From Alphaproteobacteria bacterium (GTDB taxonomy: Bacteria > Pseudomonadota > Alphaproteobacteria > UBA6615), in the NCBI GenBank assembly GCA_027297685.1, contig JAPUHN010000201.1:1-32257 (forward strand): DNA of 32,257 nt. Direction: 5' to 3'. The position numbers were made by a program, and so were the translations under genes. Below the pieces are notes generated by a model. The model did not search any database, was not told the origin of the DNA, and saw nothing but the letters and a program-made list of their open reading frames with translations. Positions 2,293-20,770 of the stretch are shown piece after piece; position 1 is the first letter of the stretch, and the number at the start of each line of letters is the position of its first letter.

Positions 2293-2910
2293 TCAACCGC
2301 CCTGCTGGACCTTCACGTAGTTGACGATACGGCGCACGTCGTCGCGCGCGTCGACAATGGCTACAGCCTTGTCGAGCTCTGACTGACTTTCAGCCAATCC
2401 CATCAGATACACCACGCCGTTTACCGAGCGGACGCGAAAATTCGATGAGTCGATGGCCGAATCGAACAGATAGTCGGCCTGGATTACCTTCTCGATGTAA
2501 ATATCGTCGACCAGACTGATGATGCCACCCTCGTCGGTGACCTGGATATCGTTAGTAACGCCGCTTACTTTCTCGGGTTTACGCCCGATCGCGCCGGCCC
2601 GCGCTTTATCCTCGGCGTTTTCGACATCACCCAGCAGATAAACATGACGGCGATACACGACCGTGCCCACATCCTTGAACAAACCCAGTCCATCTTCCAA
2701 CAACAGCTTGTTGAGCTCGAGCTTGATGCCGTTGTCGTCGACCACATCGTCCAGCGTACGCTCTTCCGATGCGGTATAGGCGCCATCGACGGCCAAGGAT
2801 AAGACGGTCGGCGCACAGCCGGCGAGCGCCAACGCAGAAACTAGGTAAATCAAGTAGCGTCTAAGTCGCCACCGTTCGGGCCTGTCTTCTGCAATCAAGT
2901 TCGGAGGCAT
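2293..2910 (-). CDS. BON-domain lipoprotein (OsmY/DolP-like)
   Basis: A secreted lipoprotein of about 205 residues. A basic stretch (RWRLRR) precedes a hydrophobic segment ending in the lipobox ALAGC, so Cys32 should be lipidated. The mature part holds two BON-type modules: one around VYRRHVYLLGDVENAEDKAR and one around RVRSVNGVVYLMGLAESQSE, which is followed by VDARDDVRRIVNYVKV. BON domains bind phospholipid surfaces or other envelope components. DolP and OsmY are the best-known relatives, and a periplasmic or outer-membrane location is inferred. The start is uncertain: ATG 2910 lies two bases after the stop of the preceding eipA-like gene, while ATG 2928 overlaps that gene by 16 bp and adds six residues. 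Neither has a strong ribosome binding site, which suggests translational coupling to eipA. Confidence 0.85.
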   Translation of the reverse strand: MPPNLIAEDRPERWRLRRYLIYLVSALALAGCAPTVLSLAVDGAYTASEERTLDDVVDDNGIKLELNKLLLEDGLGLFKDVGTVVYRRHVYLLGDVENAEDKARAGAIGRKPEKVSGVTNDIQVTDEGGIISLVDDIYIEKVIQADYLFDSAIDSSNFRVRSVNGVVYLMGLAESQSELDKAVAIVDARDDVRRIVNYVKVQQGG

Positions 2911-2912
2911 TG

Positions 2913-3494
2913 TTAGAACGGATTCCATGACCGTTTCTTCGTGTAGTGCAAATAGCCGACATTGGCCCCGGCACGCAGTCCTATGCCGGTGCGGATAGGC
3001 GCTAATATGATGTCGCCGGTCTGCTGATAATTCACGCCGACGCCGGCGACGAAGTAAAACGTACCTTCGACACCGGGAAACCGCTGATAGATCTCCTCAC
3101 TATCTTTGAGGTGGTAGATCAGTACGAAAACCTTTGAGGCGTTGCCGCCAGCGTCGAAACCGACCGACGGGCCCTGCCAATGGACCTTGCGAGTATCGCC
3201 GTTTTTGCGGTGCAGAGTGCCATCCCCGTATCTCAAGCCAATGATGAGTGCGGCGCTGATTTCCTCGCCGGTTAGAAAACCGTTAGGCCGCCCCTGGTCT
3301 GCGAATACGTGCTCGATGGCCTTGGCCAGACCTTCGGTGGTTTCACCGAAAAATGCGGACGCTTTGGCGAACATTTCGTCTTCACTAAATTCGTCGTCAT
3401 TGGTTGCCTGGGCCGCATTCGGGGCTAACGCGAGCAAAACCGCCAGCGCGAAGGCGAAGAGAAATACCTGGATTCGATCAGCGTGATGGGGCAT
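2913..3494 (-). CDS. eipA: EipA family (DUF1134) cell-envelope integrity protein
   Basis: A 193-residue periplasmic protein with a signal peptide (hydrophobic core FLFAFALAVLLALAP, likely cleavage after AQA near residue 29). The mature region matches the DUF1134/EipA pattern: an acidic N-terminal helix (EFSEDEMFAKASAFFG), then the conserved block LRYGDGTLHRKNGDTRKVHW, WQGPSVGFDAGGNASKVFVL, and a Gly-rich end (GIGLRAGANVGYLHYTK). In Brucella and Caulobacter, EipA is a small beta-barrel protein needed for envelope integrity and linked to cell division and LPS. The start at ATG 3494 is supported by AGGAGG at 3501-3506; an in-frame upstream start would place that site inside the gene. The BON lipoprotein follows at once, so the two probably form an envelope-maintenance operon. 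Confidence 0.88.
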   Translation of the reverse strand: MPHHADRIQVFLFAFALAVLLALAPNAAQATNDDEFSEDEMFAKASAFFGETTEGLAKAIEHVFADQGRPNGFLTGEEISAALIIGLRYGDGTLHRKNGDTRKVHWQGPSVGFDAGGNASKVFVLIYHLKDSEEIYQRFPGVEGTFYFVAGVGVNYQQTGDIILAPIRTGIGLRAGANVGYLHYTKKRSWNPF

Positions 3495-3563
3495 CGACAA
3501 CCTCCTGAACAATCTATGATCGTTACGCTGACACTATCACACGTGCGAGTCGCAAGTTGATTT

Positions 3564-4745
3564 TCAGTTGCGCAATATTTTTGTGTCGGCGCGCGGCCGC
3601 AAATTTAGGACAAGGCCAGCTGCTACCAGCAACGCGGCTGTCGCTACCATCGAGGGCAGTAAAAAGCTGTCGCCGAACCGGTAGGTAACGCCTGCAAAGG
3701 TCGGGCCGATCATCTGACCGAGACCGAACGCGGCGGTCATAAAGGCGAGGCTTCGACGAGGATCGCCTGCCGAGAGATCGCGTGCGTAGATGAACCCTAA
3801 TGCAGTAATTCCCATGAAAGTTCCGCCGAGCAACGCCGCGGCAACAAGTACCGCCATGGCGCTCGTTGTCAGAACGCTCAAAGCCACGCCGATCGCTTCA
3901 ACAATGCAGGCCAGCGCAAAGCTACGGTCATTTCCCCACCGCCGGCCAATCCATGTCCACAAGGCAATCGATGGTATGGCGGCGAGACCAACCACCAGCC
4001 AGACTACCGATTCGATCGATTGCAGGCCCGCAGCGGTTCGCACCATTGCCGAAATAAAGGTGGCGGTTACTACGTAGCCGAAGCCGAAAAGACCGTACGC
4101 CACGATCAGCGCGTAAAGGCGCCGCTCAATGGCGGTGTTGTGAGCTGCTGACGAGCGGTCCGCTTCCACCTCATCGGGCACCAGCCAGACCACCGCTGCG
4201 AGCGCCAGGAGAGCCACTGCGCCGCTCGCGATCCATTGGGTTTGCCAGCCGAAATCGCCAGCCGATAGTCCGGAAACGAGCACCGCTGACACCGCGATGC
4301 CGACACCGACACCGGCAAAATGGACAGCCGATAGCGCTGACCGGCCGGACGCCGCTAATCGATCGAGGACCAGCGCGGAGGCAAATACCAAGATGAATGC
4401 GCTGGCGACACCACCGACAAACCGAAGACTGAGGAAAACCGCCATCGACGTGGTCAGGCCCATGGCTCCTGTTGACACAGCGCTAACGCCAAGTGCGCCA
4501 ATTAACCAATTCCGTCGTCCGCCGGGCAAAACCGATGATGCGGCTGCTAGCGCACCGAGCAGGTAGCCGAGAAAATTTACCGAAGCGATGATGCCGGCTT
4601 GCGGTTTTGTCAGCCCGAGGGCCTCCTCCATGAAGGGCAGCAACGGCGTATAGACAAACCGCCCGATACCCATCCCAGCAGCCAGCGCGATGAGGCCTCC
4701 GAGAGCAATCCAGTTTGCTTTATGAGCACCTGATTCATCGCTCAT
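3564..4745 (-). CDS. YbfB/YjiJ-family MFS transporter
   Basis: A 393-residue polytopic membrane protein with about 12 hydrophobic segments. The N-terminal signature ALAAGMGIGRFVYTPLLPFM is typical of the YbfB/YjiJ branch of the major facilitator superfamily, which is presumed to act in drug or metabolite efflux or in sugar transport; the substrate is not known. FLGYLLGALAA and ALGFIYARDLSAGDPR are also family-like, and the C-terminus ends in a short basic tail. The start is taken at ATG 4745; a GTG at 4763 would add six residues without a hydrophobic segment. The gene lies 105 bp downstream of a LysR regulator on the same strand. The gap contains an AT-rich dyad (4805-4829), so control by that regulator is likely. 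Confidence 0.9.
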   Translation of the reverse strand: MSDESGAHKANWIALGGLIALAAGMGIGRFVYTPLLPFMEEALGLTKPQAGIIASVNFLGYLLGALAAASSVLPGGRRNWLIGALGVSAVSTGAMGLTTSMAVFLSLRFVGGVASAFILVFASALVLDRLAASGRSALSAVHFAGVGVGIAVSAVLVSGLSAGDFGWQTQWIASGAVALLALAAVVWLVPDEVEADRSSAAHNTAIERRLYALIVAYGLFGFGYVVTATFISAMVRTAAGLQSIESVVWLVVGLAAIPSIALWTWIGRRWGNDRSFALACIVEAIGVALSVLTTSAMAVLVAAALLGGTFMGITALGFIYARDLSAGDPRRSLAFMTAAFGLGQMIGPTFAGVTYRFGDSFLLPSMVATAALLVAAGLVLNLRPRADTKILRN

Positions 4746-14678: not shown

Positions 14679-15566
14679 ATGACCAAAGTTGGATATGTAA
14701 AACTTGATCGCGGGCTGGTGGCGATTACCGGCGCTGACCGGCAGACGTTTCTCCAGGGACTGATTTCGCAGGATGTCGATCGGGTCTCGGAGACGCGCGC
14801 CGCCTATGGAGCATTCCTGACGCCACAGGGAAAGTATCTCCACGATTTTTGTCTCGCCGAGATCGACGATCGCTTGATCCTCGATGGCGAACAGGGACGC
14901 GCCGACGAGCTCATTGCGCGTATGGGGCGCTTCAAGTTGCGCGCCAAAGTCGACCTCGCCGCCGCTGACGATCTCTCCGTGTTCGCAGTGTTCGGCGAAA
15001 ATGCACCTTCGTTACTAAATCTAGCGGAGAAACCCGGGACTGCGCGGCGGCTCGGCGATGGCCTCGCTTTCGTCGATCCGCGCTCGGCCAAGCTTGGATG
15101 CCGCTTGATTCTGCCGGTCGCTGTCTCCGCTGCGATACTGGCCGATCTGCCAATTGGCGAAAGTACGTTCGGGGACTACGACACCCTGCGAATACGCCTC
15201 GGTATTCCTGATGGCATGCGAGATATGGAAGTCGAGAAATCGATTCTTCTCGAATGCAATTTCGACTCGCTCAACGGAATCGACTGGGATAAGGGCTGCT
15301 ATATCGGTCAAGAAGTCACGGCGCGAACCAAATTCCGCGGTCTCATCAAACGCAATTTGGTGCCGGTCTCCGTCGAAGGCGGGCCACCCGCTCCGGGAAC
15401 TGCCATATGCGCCGACAACAAAAAGGTTGGTGAAATTCGCTCGATCCACGACGGATTCGCGATCGCGTCGCTACGGCTGGACGCAATGGAGAGCGCCGAA
15501 TTAGGACTCTCACTAACGGCCGACGGGGCTGTTATCTCACCCCTATCGACTGCATCGACCGATTAA
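14679..15566 (+). CDS. ygfZ: YgfZ/GcvT-domain folate-binding protein
   Basis: A 295-residue protein related to the aminomethyltransferase GcvT. The family signature KGCYIGQEVTAR is present with Cys207, and the N-terminus (LDRGLVAITGADRQTFLQGL, ISQDV) and the C-terminal barrel (NKKVGEIRSIHDGFAIASLR) fit. YgfZ-type proteins use tetrahydrofolate and support assembly or repair of certain iron-sulfur enzymes, including the tRNA thiolation enzyme MiaB; the conserved Cys is required. They act in the cytoplasm. The start is ATG 14679; no strong ribosome binding site is seen. A perfect inverted repeat (15572-15593) lies six bases after the stop codon and may stabilise or end the transcript. Confidence 0.93.
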   Translation: MTKVGYVKLDRGLVAITGADRQTFLQGLISQDVDRVSETRAAYGAFLTPQGKYLHDFCLAEIDDRLILDGEQGRADELIARMGRFKLRAKVDLAAADDLSVFAVFGENAPSLLNLAEKPGTARRLGDGLAFVDPRSAKLGCRLILPVAVSAAILADLPIGESTFGDYDTLRIRLGIPDGMRDMEVEKSILLECNFDSLNGIDWDKGCYIGQEVTARTKFRGLIKRNLVPVSVEGGPPAPGTAICADNKKVGEIRSIHDGFAIASLRLDAMESAELGLSLTADGAVISPLSTASTD

Positions 15567-15634: not shown

Positions 15635-15657
15635 TGATATGCTAAAAACGCATATCA
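15635..15657. promoter_or_regulatory. Perfect 8-bp inverted repeat, candidate operator
   Basis: TGATATGC and GCATATCA flank the 7-nt spacer TAAAAAC. The repeat ends six bases before the likely -35 element of the promoter at 15664-15693, the usual position for an activator or repressor site. No known regulator motif is recognised. Confidence 0.5.
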
Positions 15658-15663
15658 CATTGA

Positions 15664-15693
15664 TTGAAAGTACCTTTTTCTGACCTATATATT
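15664..15693 (+). promoter_or_regulatory. Sigma70-like promoter for the small ORF
   Basis: TTGAAA at 15664-15669 is followed after 16 bp by TATATA (15686-15691), or after 18 bp by TATATT (15688-15693). The predicted transcript would begin about 25-30 bases before the ATG at 15727, which itself has GAGAGG in front. Assigned by eye only. Confidence 0.5.
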
Positions 15694-15726
15694 GCAGTGC
15701 ACACAGACATAAAGCAGTGAGAGGAT

Positions 15727-15879
15727 ATGATGAGAAACAATATAAACTATCTATACGATGCGGATATTATTCGTCGCGCGGAGCAGGAACGCAGCAAAGT
15801 CATCATCGAGTTCTTCACCGGACTGTTCAGCCGTGACAAGCACGATCATGCGTCTTCCAATGCGGTTGCCGCCGAATAG
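15727..15879 (+). CDS. Small unrecognised protein, 50 residues
   Basis: ATG at 15727 or 15730 starts a 50-codon ORF with GAGAGG at 15719-15724. The product opens with MMRNNINYLYDADIIRRAEQ and has a central amphipathic helix RSKVIIEFFTGLFSR, followed by a short polar tail DKHDHASSNAVAAE. There is no signal peptide and no complete membrane span. The helix could lie on a membrane or pack against a partner protein. I do not recognise the family. The case for a real gene is the ensemble: a promoter-like sequence and inverted repeat upstream, a ribosome binding site, and a terminator 45 bp after the stop. It is AT-rich at the 5' end compared with its neighbours. Confidence 0.65.
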   Translation: MMRNNINYLYDADIIRRAEQERSKVIIEFFTGLFSRDKHDHASSNAVAAE

Positions 15880-15921: not shown

Positions 15922-15964
15922 AAAAAAAGGCCGTGCCCGATCAAACCGGACGCGGCCTTTTTTG
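15922..15964. terminator. Rho-independent terminator (possibly bidirectional)
   Basis: The left arm, an A-run plus GGCCGTGCCCG, pairs with CGGACGCGGCC plus a T-run; the stem is long with one or two imperfect pairs and a loop of about 7 nt (ATCAAAC). T-runs occur on both strands. It ends the small plus-strand ORF and may also end the ppdK transcript from the other side. Confidence 0.85.
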
Positions 15965-15999: not shown

Positions 16000-18681
16000 C
16001 TAATCCTTAGACGCCGTCGCCGCTTGAGCCGCCGCAAGGCGGGCGATCGGCACCCGATAAGGCGAACACGATACGTAGTCGAGGCCGGCACGGTCGCAAA
16101 ACCGCACCGAAGCGGGATCGCCGCCATGTTCACCGCAAATACCAAGCTTGATATCGGGACGCGTGGCCCGACCCCGTTCAACCGCTATGGTCACCAACTC
16201 GCCAACGCCATCAACGTCGATGCTGACGAAAGGATCGACTTCAAAAATTCCATAGTGAAGATAATCGGGTAAAAAGCTCGCGGCATCATCGCGGCTGATG
16301 CCAAAGGTGGTCTGCGTGAGGTCGTTGGTCCCGAAGCTGAAAAATTCAGCCGTTTCAGCCAGCTCGTTTGCCCGCAAAGCGGCCCGCGGCAATTCGATCA
16401 TGGTGCCGACCGAATACGCCACTCGTTGTCCCGCCGCATCGAAAACGGATTCAGCAACCGAATCGATTTTCTCCTTGAGAATATCTAGCTCGCGCTTGGT
16501 CGCCGCCAACGGAATCATAATTTCCGGAATCACCGATCTCTCGGGCTCCGCGGCAACGGCGAGCGCGGCTTCGAATATGGCGCGCGCCTGCATTTCGTAG
16601 ATCTCCGGAAAGCTGATGCCGAGCCGACAGCCGCGATGGCCGAGCATCGGGTTGGATTCATGGAGACGTGCGGCGGTCGCTTGTATCGCCTTTGGATCTT
16701 TGCCCGACGCTTTCGCCACTTCGGCGATTTCAGCATCGGTACGGGGCAAAAACTCGTGCAACGGCGGATCGAGCAGCCGAATAGTGACCGGCAATCCCGA
16801 CATGATGCGAAAGAGCTCAATGAAGTCTGCGCGTTGAAACGGTAACAATTCGTCCAGCGCGGTACGCCGGCCGGCCTCACTCTCGGCCATAATCATCTGG
16901 CGAACGGCGACGATCCGTTCGGGGTCGAAGAACATATGCTCGGTCCGACACAAGCCGATTCCTTCGGCGCCAAACTCGCGCGCCCTTCGCGCATCGGCCG
17001 GGGTTTCGGCGTTGGCGCGCACCTTCAAGCGGCGCTGCTGATCGGCCCATTCCATGAGCTGTGCAAATTCGTCTGACACCTCGGGCTCAATGGTCGCCAC
17101 ACGGCCCTCGATGACCTCGCCCGCCGCGCCGTCGATTGTGATCAGATCGCCAGCAGCGAAATTGCGGCCGCCGATGGACATGACGCCTGCCGCATAATCG
17201 ACATTGATTTCGCTGGCACCGGTGACACAGGGCCGTCCCATTCCGCGCGCGACGACGGCAGCATGGCTGGTCATACCGCCGCGGGTCGTCAGGATGCCGC
17301 GCGCGGCGTGCATGCCATGAATGTCTTCCGGGCTGGTTTCTATGCGCACCAGGATGACATCTTCGCCCTTCTGCGACATGTCCTCGGCAATGTCGGCGCT
17401 GAAGACGATTTTACCCGTCGCCGCCCCGGGCGATGCCGGCAACGCCCTCGTCAAGACGTTTCGGGTCGCGCCGGGATCGAGACGGGGGTGCAGGAGTTGC
17501 TCGAGTTGAGCGGGATCGACCCGGTTGACCGCATCGACCTCGGTGATCACACCCTCGCCGACCATTTCCACCGCGATGCGGATCGCTGCTGCCGCGGTGC
17601 GCTTGCCCGATCGCGTTTGCAGCATGTAGAGCTTGCCCTGCTGCACAGTGAATTCGATGTCCTGCATGTCCTTGTAATGGACTTCGAGTAACTGGCGAAC
17701 GTCTGTCAGCTGGGCGAATACTCCAGGCATGACTTCTTCCATCGCAGGAAGATTTGAGGCGTTCCGCTGCTTGCCGACGAGCGTCAAATGCTGAGGCGTA
17801 CGGATTCCGGCAACGACGTCCTCACCCTGTGCGTTGACCAAGTATTCACCGTAGAACATGTTCTCACCGGTCGACGGATCACGCGTGAAGGCAACGCCGG
17901 TCGCACAATCCTCGCCCATGTTACCGAACACCATGGCCTGAATATTGACCGCAGTACCCCACTCCGCAGAGATGTCGTGAAGCCGCCGATAAGTGATGGC
18001 ACGCTGGTTCATCCACGACCCGAAAACCGCCCCGATGGCGCCCCAAAGCTGTTCCCGAGGATCCTGGGGGAACGATTCTTTTAGCTCGCGCTCGATAATT
18101 TTCTTGTATTCCGAGACAACCGCACGCCAGTCATCGGCGCTCAGATCGGTATCCAATATAAGGTCACGGTCGAGCTTGGTCTGCTCGAGCGTCTCCTCGA
18201 ACAGGTAATGGTCCACCCCCAGCACGACATCGCCGAACATCTGAATAAACCGTCGATAGCTGTCGTAGGCGAACCTGGAATCACCCGACCGGGTCGCCAG
18301 ACCTTCCACCGTCACATCGTTGAGGCCGAGATTGAGAACGGTGTCCATCATGCCTGGCATCGACGCCCGCGATCCCGAACGCACCGACACCAGCAACGGG
18401 TTGTCCGGATCGCCAAAGGCTGCGCCAACACGCTTTTCGATCTCGGCCAGCGCTTCGTCTACTGCTGCGCTCAGATCATCGGGGAAGACGTTATCGTAGG
18501 CGTAGTAGTGGGTGCAAACTTCAGTCGTGATCGTAAAACCGGGCGGCACCGGCAGACCAAGATTGCTCATCTCGGCCAGGTTGGCGCCTTTGCCACCCAA
18601 CAAATTTCGCATTTCGGCGCTTCCATCGGCGCGGCCATCGCCGAAACTGTATATCCACTTGGTCGTGGGCTTTCCCGCCAT
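16000..18681 (-). CDS. ppdK: Pyruvate, phosphate dikinase
   Basis: An 893-residue enzyme that interconverts pyruvate, ATP and phosphate with phosphoenolpyruvate, AMP and pyrophosphate. It is a key step in gluconeogenesis or in pyrophosphate-linked glycolysis. The ATP-grasp domain opens with WIYSFGDGRADGSAEMRN and GGKGANLAEMSNLGLPVPPG. The phospho-carrier His473 lies in GGMTSHAAVVARGMGRPCVT. The C-terminal PEP/pyruvate barrel has GLCRTEHMFF and the catalytic Cys849 in GICGEHGGDP. Both residues are offset by 18 from His455 and Cys831 of the Clostridium symbiosum enzyme, so the length and core are complete. ATG 18681 is preferred to ATG 18720, as it gives the common MAGKPTTKWIYSFGDG start with GAAGG upstream and begins 7 bp after the glyS stop codon. 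It is the last gene of the glyQ-glyS-ppdK unit. Confidence 0.96.
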   Translation of the reverse strand: MAGKPTTKWIYSFGDGRADGSAEMRNLLGGKGANLAEMSNLGLPVPPGFTITTEVCTHYYAYDNVFPDDLSAAVDEALAEIEKRVGAAFGDPDNPLLVSVRSGSRASMPGMMDTVLNLGLNDVTVEGLATRSGDSRFAYDSYRRFIQMFGDVVLGVDHYLFEETLEQTKLDRDLILDTDLSADDWRAVVSEYKKIIERELKESFPQDPREQLWGAIGAVFGSWMNQRAITYRRLHDISAEWGTAVNIQAMVFGNMGEDCATGVAFTRDPSTGENMFYGEYLVNAQGEDVVAGIRTPQHLTLVGKQRNASNLPAMEEVMPGVFAQLTDVRQLLEVHYKDMQDIEFTVQQGKLYMLQTRSGKRTAAAAIRIAVEMVGEGVITEVDAVNRVDPAQLEQLLHPRLDPGATRNVLTRALPASPGAATGKIVFSADIAEDMSQKGEDVILVRIETSPEDIHGMHAARGILTTRGGMTSHAAVVARGMGRPCVTGASEINVDYAAGVMSIGGRNFAAGDLITIDGAAGEVIEGRVATIEPEVSDEFAQLMEWADQQRRLKVRANAETPADARRAREFGAEGIGLCRTEHMFFDPERIVAVRQMIMAESEAGRRTALDELLPFQRADFIELFRIMSGLPVTIRLLDPPLHEFLPRTDAEIAEVAKASGKDPKAIQATAARLHESNPMLGHRGCRLGISFPEIYEMQARAIFEAALAVAAEPERSVIPEIMIPLAATKRELDILKEKIDSVAESVFDAAGQRVAYSVGTMIELPRAALRANELAETAEFFSFGTNDLTQTTFGISRDDAASFLPDYLHYGIFEVDPFVSIDVDGVGELVTIAVERGRATRPDIKLGICGEHGGDPASVRFCDRAGLDYVSCSPYRVPIARLAAAQAATASKD

Positions 18682-18688
18682 TGAACGA

Positions 18689-20770
18689 TTAGCCTTCGAT
18701 TTTTGAGAAGTCAGCGACATTATCCATTACCTGATGAATGTGAGCGAGCAAGCGCAACCGGTTACGCCTGATATCGGTATCGTCGACGTTGACGGTAACG
18801 TGTTCGAAAAACTTGTCCACGGGTTCGCGCAATTGCGCCAGTAATGACATGGCGTCAGCGAATCGATCCGCTTCCAGGGACGAGCTGGCTTTTTCCTCTA
18901 CCTCACCCAACGCAGTCCACAGCGCTGCCTCTACGCCGTTCGCTTCGGTCTGCCCAAGGACTGCATCGTAGGCTTCGCCGGCATACACCACGTCGTCTTT
19001 TTTCTGTTCTGCCCGCACGATATTTGCCGCGCGGCGATAGGCCGTCAGCAGATTGGCGCCATCCACCGATTCCAAGAACGACGCCAACGCATGAACGCGT
19101 TCGAGAAGGCGCACGAGATCGTCTTCGCCCGACAATGCAAAGACCGCCTCTATATGGTCGTGCGAAACGCCTTCGTCGCGAAGATGGACCTTCAGCCGGT
19201 CGGCGATGAAAGCCAGGAGATCGTCGTAGATCGTGCTGTCGTCGACGTCGAGTAAGCTACCTGCGGCGGCAAACGTCGCCCGCAAGGATAGCCGAAGCCG
19301 GTTCTCGAGAACGATCCGGATCACCCCCAGCGCCGCCCGACGTAAGGCATAAGGGTCCTTCGAGCCCGTCGGTTTTTCGTCGATCGCCCAAAAGCCGACC
19401 AAAGTGTCGATCTTGTCGGCCATCGCCACGGCGATGCTGGTTGGCGACGACGGACAATTATCCGTCGGCCCCATCGGCGAATAGTGTTCGGCGATCGCAT
19501 CCGCCACATCGGCTGCTTCGCCATCGGCGAGCGCGTAGTACCGCCCCATGATACCCTGCAATTCGGGAAACTCGCCGACCATTCCGGTCACCAGATCGGC
19601 CTTGGCCAGCCGCGCCGCAGAACGCACCCGGTCGCGGTCAGCGTCGGGAATTGCGGCCGCCAGATCGACGGCAAGCGCTTGAACCCGCTGTACCTTCGCC
19701 CCTAGGGAACCGAGCTTGGCGTGAAATACGATCTGGTCTAACGCGGGCAACCGGTCTTCGAGGCGAACCCTGCGGTCCTGATCCCAGAAATGTTGGGCGT
19801 CGGCCAATCGCGCCCGTAGAACCCGTTGGTTGCCGGCAACGATTTCGGCGCCGCCATCGTCGGTGACCATGTTGGCAACAAAGGCGAACTTCGACGCCAG
19901 CGTGCCGTCGGGCTGTTCCAGGGCGAAATATTTCTGGTGGCGTCGCATCGATGTCGTGAGGACTTCGGCCGGCAATTCCATAAAAGTGGGGTCAATATCG
20001 CCGGTCAACACGACTGGCCATTCGACCAACCCAGTCACTTCGTCGAGCAGAGCCGGATCGTCGCGGACTGCCAGGCCTAACGCCTGGGCCGCCTCGCCGA
20101 GGGCTTCCGCGATCGTGCTTCGTCGGCGTTCCCGGTCGATGGCGACGAATCCCTTGGCGAGTTTTTCGACGTAGTCGCCGTGATCGTTCACTGGTATCGC
20201 GCGAGGCGCCAAGAACCGGTGACCATAAGTTTGATCGGTAAATGCTAGCTCTCCGTCATCGAGATCGATACCGCCAGCCAGCGGCGCACCGTCGAATATC
20301 GCCAGGACATTGTGGAGCGGCCGCACCCATCGGAAACGGGATTCAGCCCAACGCATGGATTTCGGCCACGAAATTTTGGCGACCGCATCGCTGACGATGT
20401 TAGCCAGAACGTCTTTTACCGGTTGGCCGTGCTGCTCGATGACTGCGACATAGAAGGACCCCTTCTTGTCTTCGCGGACTTCGCAATCATCCAGTGACAC
20501 GCCGGCAGCCCCGAGGAACCCCTGGATCGCCTGCTCCGGGGCATTGGTTCGCGGGCCCTTTCGCTCGATCGTCCGGTCCGCTTGCACGGTCGGCAAGCCG
20601 TCGACGACCAAGGCAAGCCGGCGCGCCGCCGAATACGTCGTGGCGTCAGAGAATTCGATTTCGGCTTCGGCGAGCGCATCGACCACGAGGCGGCGCAGTT
20701 GATCGGCAGCGGGCGCCTGCATGCCCGCCGGGATCTCCTCCGACAATAGTTCCAAGAGTAGCTCGGCCAT
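18689..20770 (-). CDS. glyS: Glycyl-tRNA synthetase beta subunit
   Basis: A 693-residue subunit of the bacterial alpha2beta2 glycyl-tRNA synthetase. The N-terminus MAELLLELLSEEIPAGMQAP is characteristic. Family blocks visible are FIERKGPRTNAPEQAI-like sequence (TIERKGPRTNAPEQAIQGFL), WPKSMRWAESRFRWVRPLHN, MRRHQKYFALEQPDG and, further on, AMADKIDTLVGFWAIDEKPTG. The subunit supplies tRNA recognition and includes an HD-like domain and an anticodon-binding C-terminus. Its length matches the family. Translation starts 3 bp after the glyQ stop codon, so the two subunits are tightly coupled, and ppdK follows within 7 bp. Confidence 0.97.
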   Translation of the reverse strand: MAELLLELLSEEIPAGMQAPAADQLRRLVVDALAEAEIEFSDATTYSAARRLALVVDGLPTVQADRTIERKGPRTNAPEQAIQGFLGAAGVSLDDCEVREDKKGSFYVAVIEQHGQPVKDVLANIVSDAVAKISWPKSMRWAESRFRWVRPLHNVLAIFDGAPLAGGIDLDDGELAFTDQTYGHRFLAPRAIPVNDHGDYVEKLAKGFVAIDRERRRSTIAEALGEAAQALGLAVRDDPALLDEVTGLVEWPVVLTGDIDPTFMELPAEVLTTSMRRHQKYFALEQPDGTLASKFAFVANMVTDDGGAEIVAGNQRVLRARLADAQHFWDQDRRVRLEDRLPALDQIVFHAKLGSLGAKVQRVQALAVDLAAAIPDADRDRVRSAARLAKADLVTGMVGEFPELQGIMGRYYALADGEAADVADAIAEHYSPMGPTDNCPSSPTSIAVAMADKIDTLVGFWAIDEKPTGSKDPYALRRAALGVIRIVLENRLRLSLRATFAAAGSLLDVDDSTIYDDLLAFIADRLKVHLRDEGVSHDHIEAVFALSGEDDLVRLLERVHALASFLESVDGANLLTAYRRAANIVRAEQKKDDVVYAGEAYDAVLGQTEANGVEAALWTALGEVEEKASSSLEADRFADAMSLLAQLREPVDKFFEHVTVNVDDTDIRRNRLRLLAHIHQVMDNVADFSKIEG

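Follow-up and report, generated by a model that had tools for sequence, protein, structure and literature searches.

A conserved small-protein gene of an uncultured alphaproteobacterial order, with its own promoter and a predicted LsrB/VtlR-type operator

Introduction

A short open reading frame (ORF) lying between ygfZ and ppdK in an alphaproteobacterial contig raises the question of whether it is a gene and, if so, what controls it and what its product may do. The window analysed here is the whole stretch of 32,257 nucleotides that contains it. Proteins of 49-50 residues of this kind are easily overlooked by gene finders. A preliminary description had read the ORF as a 50-residue protein with promoter, ribosome binding site and terminator of its own, with a central amphipathic helix and no recognisable domain, and had suggested a regulatory or a membrane-surface peptide.

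Results

Gene signals and start of the small ORF

The ORF and its surroundings comprised the following features.

14679-15566, plus strand: ygfZ, upstream neighbour (TIGR03317, 84.3 bits against a cut-off of 49; synteny)
15720-15725, plus strand: Shine-Dalgarno-like AGAGGA, read from the sequence; most relatives have a site of the GAGAGG or GTAGGAG type ahead of the gene
15727-15879, plus strand: small protein gene, 50 codons, with the second ATG at 15730 as likely start (49 aa); homologues, a common start column and dN < dS
About 15922-15963, no strand assigned: intrinsic terminator, probably bidirectional (small gene and convergent ppdK), with a GC stem, A and T tracts on both flanks and a fold of -21.6 kcal/mol
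16000-18720, minus strand: ppdK, pyruvate phosphate dikinase, convergent neighbour (TIGR01828, 1397.6 bits against a cut-off of 843.45; synteny)

The end of AGAGGA lies 1 nt from the first ATG and 4 nt from the second, and the starts of the relatives share the alignment column of the second methionine (16 rows, with starts chosen by hand and the GTG of L013 typed as M; L004 likewise has a second M ahead of the start column). Because of this common column and the better Shine-Dalgarno fit, the second ATG, at 15730, is the likelier true start, which would give a gene at 15730-15879 and a product of 49 residues. The 50-codon ORF thus stood as described, with a product probably one residue shorter, and the proposed ribosome binding site and terminator were both recovered. 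The terminator did not appear in the output of a simple scan; a comparable stem with a T-rich tail was found 3' of 14 of the 16 copies and was weak in L002 and L008 (the stems being the best of many windows). Since A and T tracts flank the stem on both sides, it probably terminates ppdK as well. Rfam gave no match at threshold in the window.

Distribution and coding constraint

The preliminary description had proposed a search of related genomes for homologues and a comparison of substitution patterns. With the single sequence, matches occurred in 16 of 60 genomes, all of them among the 24 of its own family (0 of 36 outside); the 16-row profile matched 17 of the order's 24 genomes at E ≤ 0.001. 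In a sample of the class the profile matched 13 of 385 genomes at E ≤ 0.01, five in the family and eight outside. Seven of these eight were short, involved the C-terminal half and fell in six cases in frames of at least 158 codons, and were taken as chance; the eighth (G288, L025) was an RSP_7527-like protein. Relatives occurred in five records from four named MAGs, two of whose names (MarineAlpha12_Bin1 and ALOHA_A2.5_4) suggest a marine origin.

The copies considered numbered 18, that is, 19 rows of the profile search minus the partial G010:C26 and counting the copy of G019, which has an in-frame TAG. In the fetched loci ygfZ and ppdK both flanked 15 of the 18; one copy had only ppdK (contig end), that of G003 only ygfZ, and that of G013:C351 neither. 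This last copy (L002/L047) is a second one in its genome, outside the ygfZ-ppdK site; its C-terminus is longer, and box and promoter are as in the other copies. The copy with the in-frame TAG (L016/L042, G019:C17) has kept the upstream TGC-N7-GCA, and an 84-codon frame at another locus (L052:1449-1703, G010:C26) gave a weak family match (E 1.4e-4) and may be a paralogue. Seven genomes of the order (G002, G005, G008, G011, G012, G017 and G021) were without a match to the small gene. Four of them (G002, G005, G021 and G017) showed, by eye, ygfZ followed by ppdK without the small ORF, ygfZ was not found in G011 and G012, and in G008 the ORF after ygfZ is one that we take to be rpmJ-like.

In all 11 pairs tested dN was lower than dS (dN/dS 0.05-0.35, dN 0.05-0.36, dS 0.25-2.4); the pairs were hand-chosen from 120, and the larger dS estimates approach saturation and are rough. 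Differences at codon positions 1, 2 and 3 amounted to 105, 87 and 215 in these pairs, and to 2355, 1970 and 3575 in all 120. Judged by these comparisons of sequences, the ORF at 15727-15879 is a real, conserved, protein-coding gene: homologues exist and the three codon positions do not change at equal rates.

Structure and family relations of the protein

AlphaFold2, run with six sequences, predicted a single helix over residues 2-42 (mean pLDDT 79.5, with 95-96 over residues 11-30; pTM 0.47). The hydrophobic moment of the helix was 0.304 vs. a mean of 0.254 for shuffles of the same residues, 33% of which equalled or exceeded it. The long helix of the preliminary description was thus retained, and its amphipathicity was dropped as an argument because the moment does not rise above that of the shuffles. 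Most members share the motif AExER..aI..FF..LF and a C-terminal AAE/PAE, and the window product has a net charge of -1 (K and R minus D and E) and is not basic.

The absence of a recognisable domain held for Pfam, where the window protein had no match and none to PF06568 (DUF1127) at E ≤ 10; none of the 17 members matched DUF1127 at E ≤ 1. NCBIfam gave one sub-threshold match, to the RSP_7527 family (NF046098), with 15.3 bits against a cut-off of 26 (13.8 in the whole-genome search), so that the window protein lies below the curated cut-off for membership. Eleven of the 17 members matched NF046098 at E ≤ 1 (best 1.5e-6). Aligned by hhalign with RSP_7527-type proteins (13 of the 30 fetched loci described below, plus L025), the family gave 95.4% probability and an E of 1.6e-8 over 28 columns, which points to homology of the core helix.

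A conserved promoter with a TGC-N7-GCA palindrome

A promoter scan picked up TTGAAA-18-TATATT near the small ORF, together with a total of 4 promoter-like sites per 1.2 kb vs. 1.0 ± 1.2 in shuffles, a result that is weak by itself. The alignment of the upstream regions gave the following elements.

15636-15656, no strand assigned: palindrome GATATGC-N7-GCATATC, a LysR-type transcriptional regulator (LTTR) box of the T-N11-A type and predicted LsrB/VtlR-type operator; TGC-N7-GCA in 16 of 16 aligned copies
15664-15666, plus strand: -35 element TTG, starting 25 nt after the box start in 16 of 16 copies
15685-15690, plus strand: -10 element CTATAT, of sigma70 or RpoH type, from the alignment, with a spacing near the consensus published for RpoD and RpoH1 of Alphaproteobacteria

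The distance from the box start to the CTATAT-like element was 46-47 nt in 15 of the 16 copies; the remaining one, L014, was missed by the pattern because it reads CTTATAT. In the window copy TTG and CTATAT are one nt closer than in most relatives. With TTG taken as -36, the box falls at about -61 to -47. As far as such an alignment can tell, the small gene carries a rigid promoter of its own, and the promoter of the preliminary description becomes convincing through the comparison with relatives. Directly 3' of the -10, at window positions 15692-15703, stands TTGCAGTGCACA, present in L001, L002, L003 and L017 and lacking in the other 12 aligned copies; for TTGCAGTGCA, after the -10 in the same four of 16 copies, a link to PhaR is conceivable.

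Exact ATATGC-N7-GCATAT occurred once in the genome of the window, upstream of the small gene. By chance alone the window should hold about one ATGC-N7-GCAT; the support for the palindrome is its conservation, and the chance count was not used. The search of this genome for palindromes with one mismatch found one just after a lysR gene. Two others, in C43 inside an ORF that is presumably cation-efflux-like and in C124 near no clear gene, were not used as evidence.

A sequence-only model of the whole promoter (R1) recovers its 16 training sites by construction, and only its other matches count as evidence. In eight genomes partial matches to the box portion lay directly downstream of one LysR gene, as judged from the coordinates. 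Several matches were not beside lysR (e.g., G014:C7 and G001:C1), and the lysR-side box of the window's own genome was not among them, having come from the palindrome search. In G003, which R1 did not match, a looser TGC-N7-GCA is all that precedes the copy, about 128 nt from its likely start. Another box-like site (L109, G001:C1:170371-170397; E 0.017 with R1) lies upstream of an ORF that we take to resemble a membrane-fusion efflux protein.

The LysR-type regulator and its box

The LysR gene beside these boxes encodes an LTTR represented by P0001 (299 aa, from G006), which had a counterpart at E ≤ 1e-60 in 21 of the order's 24 genomes, with 80% identity in the window's own genome. Its best solved structure was PDB 9HH1 (326 bits; next chain 118 bits), which is LsrB of A. 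tumefaciens (PMC11975290). The closest solved relative of the P0001-type regulator is the Agrobacterium LsrB, orthology being suggested by the PDB search and synteny; against orthology stands a section heading of a NAR paper of 2025, 'LsrB is a LTTR unique to Rhizobiales'. P0001 has one cysteine and none at the stretch corresponding to RACLLGIGIAC of LsrB, so the thiol switch of LsrB may not carry over, and redox sensing by that switch is doubtful in P0001.

Of 20 readable loci (L137 was unreadable), 18 had a box after the end of lysR, with both half-sites intact in 14 and one half degenerate in four, the window's own genome among these four; the pattern was widened after these four loci had been seen. 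In the two genomes without it (G002 and G005) the lysR stop is, by eye, almost directly followed by msrP-like sequence, and both also lack the small ORF. In the window's own genome (G000:C300, with the LTTR gene at 2675-3571) the order was trxB-lysR-box-RNA-msrP, the neighbours of lysR and the RNA being thioredoxin reductase and MsrP.

The LsrB-like LTTR was not found in G007 (listed as 99% complete), G020 (87%) and G017, where the best LTTR matches had about 30% identity. The boxed small gene is present in G007 and G020 all the same, which speaks against its control by this regulator unless their assemblies lack the locus; missing contigs could explain the absence of the regulator in these two genomes. 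G021 and G008 showed the converse, with a lysR box (and in G021 the RNA too) and no small ORF, which indicates that the arms of the proposed circuit can be separated.

A conserved RNA beside lysR

Behind the lysR box, between lysR and msrP, the sequence is conserved over a stretch that contains CCUCCC loops and a terminator.

G000:C300 (L129), about 2470-2667, no strand assigned, and the corresponding loci L117-L128: structured RNA candidate with CCUCCC loops and two-sided changes

RNAalifold on 12 of 20 loci gave -46.1 kcal/mol vs. -7.4 ± 3.8 for 30 column shuffles, which break up gap patterns too; of the boxed loci, one that was truncated and five that were divergent were left out of the alignment, along with the two boxless loci. 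The consensus had 35 pairs; changes on both sides occurred in 13 of them, and pairs other than standard ones in 31 of 420 cells. Rfam gave no match at threshold in the lysR-side RNA of L108, L113 and L114; below threshold, L108 matched SorX (24.8 bits, cut-off 46.6) and suhB/mmgR (24.5 bits, cut-off 41). From box to -10 the distance was 59-60 nt in those 12 of 18 loci that the pattern matched, in contrast with 46-47 nt at the small gene, which indicates that the two promoters are not copies of each other.

Control and role of the small gene

Taken with the published systems compared at the end, these observations make it likely that an LsrB/VtlR-type LysR regulator controls the small gene along with an AbcR-like RNA, with the palindrome as predicted operator. 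In this mechanism the LsrB-like LTTR would bind the TGC-N7-GCA palindrome and activate both the AbcR-like riboregulator RNA with its CCUCCC loops and the small protein, probably in answer to redox or metabolic stress, as the neighbours trxB and msrP suggest. The 49-residue single long helix would then be a small regulator that docks on another protein or RNA rather than an enzyme, a role proposed by analogy with DUF1127 small proteins and PhoR. The function of the small protein is in this way read from its presumed company, the DUF1127 proteins of Agrobacterium and Brucella. The regulatory peptide of the preliminary description is plausible, since small-protein genes regulated by LsrB/VtlR have a matching control region.

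The gene might instead be a plain target of RpoH, the heat and oxidative stress sigma factor, with TTG-N19-CTATAT accounting for its control and the palindrome binding an unrelated factor. RpoH promoters are described with TTG at -36 to -34 and C-14, T-13 and A-12 (PMC3441632), and the RpoH1 consensus of S. meliloti is given as CTTGAA-N16-CCTATAT; the spacing and the CTATAT of the small gene fit both. From the sequence upstream of it, RSP_7527-udsC has moreover been described as dependent on RpoHII, and elevated temperature induces RSP_7527. However, the RpoD consensus, given as CTTGAC-N17-CTATAT (PMC8844928), has the same spacing. The small-gene promoter thus fits the two consensus sequences, and their likeness in spacing does not single out a sigma factor. 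The palindrome, for its part, is as invariant as the promoter and occurs also at the LsrB-like lysR locus. We therefore consider RpoH control as the whole explanation unlikely; RpoH is compatible with control by an LsrB/VtlR-type regulator, and both can hold.

Quite unlikely, too, is a structural or membrane-surface peptide, a surface-active helix that does not regulate other factors. The single long helix and the largely conserved hydrophobic residues such as FF..LF would suit it, but the hydrophobic moment is that of shuffled residues, the charged A-E-x-E-R is among the conserved residues, and co-control with an RNA would suggest regulation; the membrane-surface role raised in the preliminary description thus found no particular support. 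That the transcript is mainly an sRNA or an sRNA precursor with an incidental ORF is highly improbable: Atu1667 is given as a putative sRNA (PMC7486931) and the sRNA UdsC arises from the 3'UTR of RSP_7527, but dN stays below dS in each pair, the protein motif and the C-terminal signature are conserved in most members, and Rfam found nothing in the window.

The box upstream of RSP_7527-family genes of the class

NF046098 matched at E ≤ 0.001 in 52 of 372 genomes of the class, 38 of them over the cut-off, with none in the window's own family among the matches listed. From the 60 matches in these genomes 30 loci were fetched, and 29 were used, L080 being left out. Upstream of these loci (L057-L086), [AT]TGC-N7-GCA[AT] gave 15 sites in 12 of 29 loci, vs. 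an expectation of 0.14 with the remainder of these loci as background and of 1.2 with dinucleotide shuffles; one site each in L076 and L077 lies probably within the coding start. As L057, L059 and L061 belong to one genus and L076 and L077 to another, 9 of 23 genera were boxed. With A/T ends, spacer 6 gave 6 sites vs. 0.97 and any other spacer at most 3. With loosened ends, spacers 3, 6 and 7 gave 19, 19 and 18 sites vs. 5.9, 4.6 and 4.4 expected, respectively; spacer 7 thus stands out upstream of these loci only with A/T ends. TGC-N3-GCA was itself enriched there about as much as N6 and N7 under loosened ends.

The LTTR was present at E ≤ 1e-60 in 27 of the 30 genomes with fetched loci. A spacer-7 box followed its gene in 11 of 26 readable loci of the class (13 sites vs. 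0.94), several of them ahead of paired CTCCC motifs; spacer 6 was next strongest (6 vs. 0.56), and spacers 2, 8 and 10 showed small excesses. A link between RSP_7527 and LsrB/VtlR was not found in the open-access literature covered (main texts naming RSP_7527, otherwise titles and part of the abstracts).

From these data we lean slightly towards an old, Alphaproteobacteria-wide three-part redox circuit, formed by an LsrB/VtlR-type LTTR beside trxB, an anti-Shine-Dalgarno (CCUCCC) sRNA next to it and a single-helix small protein of RSP_7527 type (or DUF1127 in Rhizobiales) under one TGC-N6/7-GCA operator, in which the window gene would be the lineage-specific protein arm, carried by an order of uncultured and at least partly marine bacteria. 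An orphan 50-residue ORF in this way becomes a testable component of a circuit described from rhizobia, Agrobacterium and Brucella. The RSP_7527-family proteins are suggested as members of an LsrB/VtlR regulon; studies of them would then have a regulator, its binding site and a partner sRNA to start from.

Comparison with known systems

The regulon of LsrB/VtlR offers a close likeness. VtlR of Brucella and Agrobacterium is described as activating AbcR sRNAs and small-protein genes (PMC7486931, PMC12595884), among them BAB1_0914, BAB2_0512 and BAB2_0574 of Brucella and Atu1667 of Agrobacterium, and the LTTR there also activates the adjoining AbcR RNA. In S. meliloti, the intergenic region adjoining lsrB holds AbcR1/2, and on PabcR1 the box of LsrB is placed at -61 to -49, ahead of CTTGAC-N17-CTATAT (PMC8844928). 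Likewise, an LsrB/VtlR-type regulator stands beside a boxed RNA in the window's own genome (it was not found in G007 and G020), and all 16 aligned copies have a box near -61 with half-sites TGC and GCA upstream of the promoter. T-N11-A is the generic LTTR motif; the spacing of the half-sites is unlike that of the published box, with a spacer of 7 here vs. 6 there. The Brucella VtlR motif CAATGCAGCCATGCA contains TGC-N6-GCA (PMC12595884), and the published form for Rhizobiales is GCAT-N3-TG-N3-T. The RNA beside lysR also differs in remaining below the Rfam threshold. The Brucella proteins are described as DUF1127 proteins, whereas the 17 members here are without Pfam DUF1127.

With the RSP_7527 family the window protein shares a common core of about 28 residues, and the upstream TGC-N7-GCA occurs in 12 of 29 loci of that family; it differs in its sub-cut-off score and in the C-terminal AAE/PAE signature of its own. 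The DUF1127 small proteins (CcaF1, YjiS and the Agrobacterium SDPs) are of similar size. Those of Brucella are described as linked to fucose use and peroxide-induced (PMC12595884), and those of Agrobacterium as binding the sensor kinase PhoR (PMC12501420). Unlike these proteins, the window product has no DUF1127 module and is not basic, and PhoR is for this reason only a candidate partner. In two proteins matching RSP_7527 (L075 and L080), one chain holds an RSP_7527-like helix and, after it, a DUF1127 domain; since they continue in this way, the RSP_7527-like helix and the DUF1127 proteins may be related modules of common ancestry.
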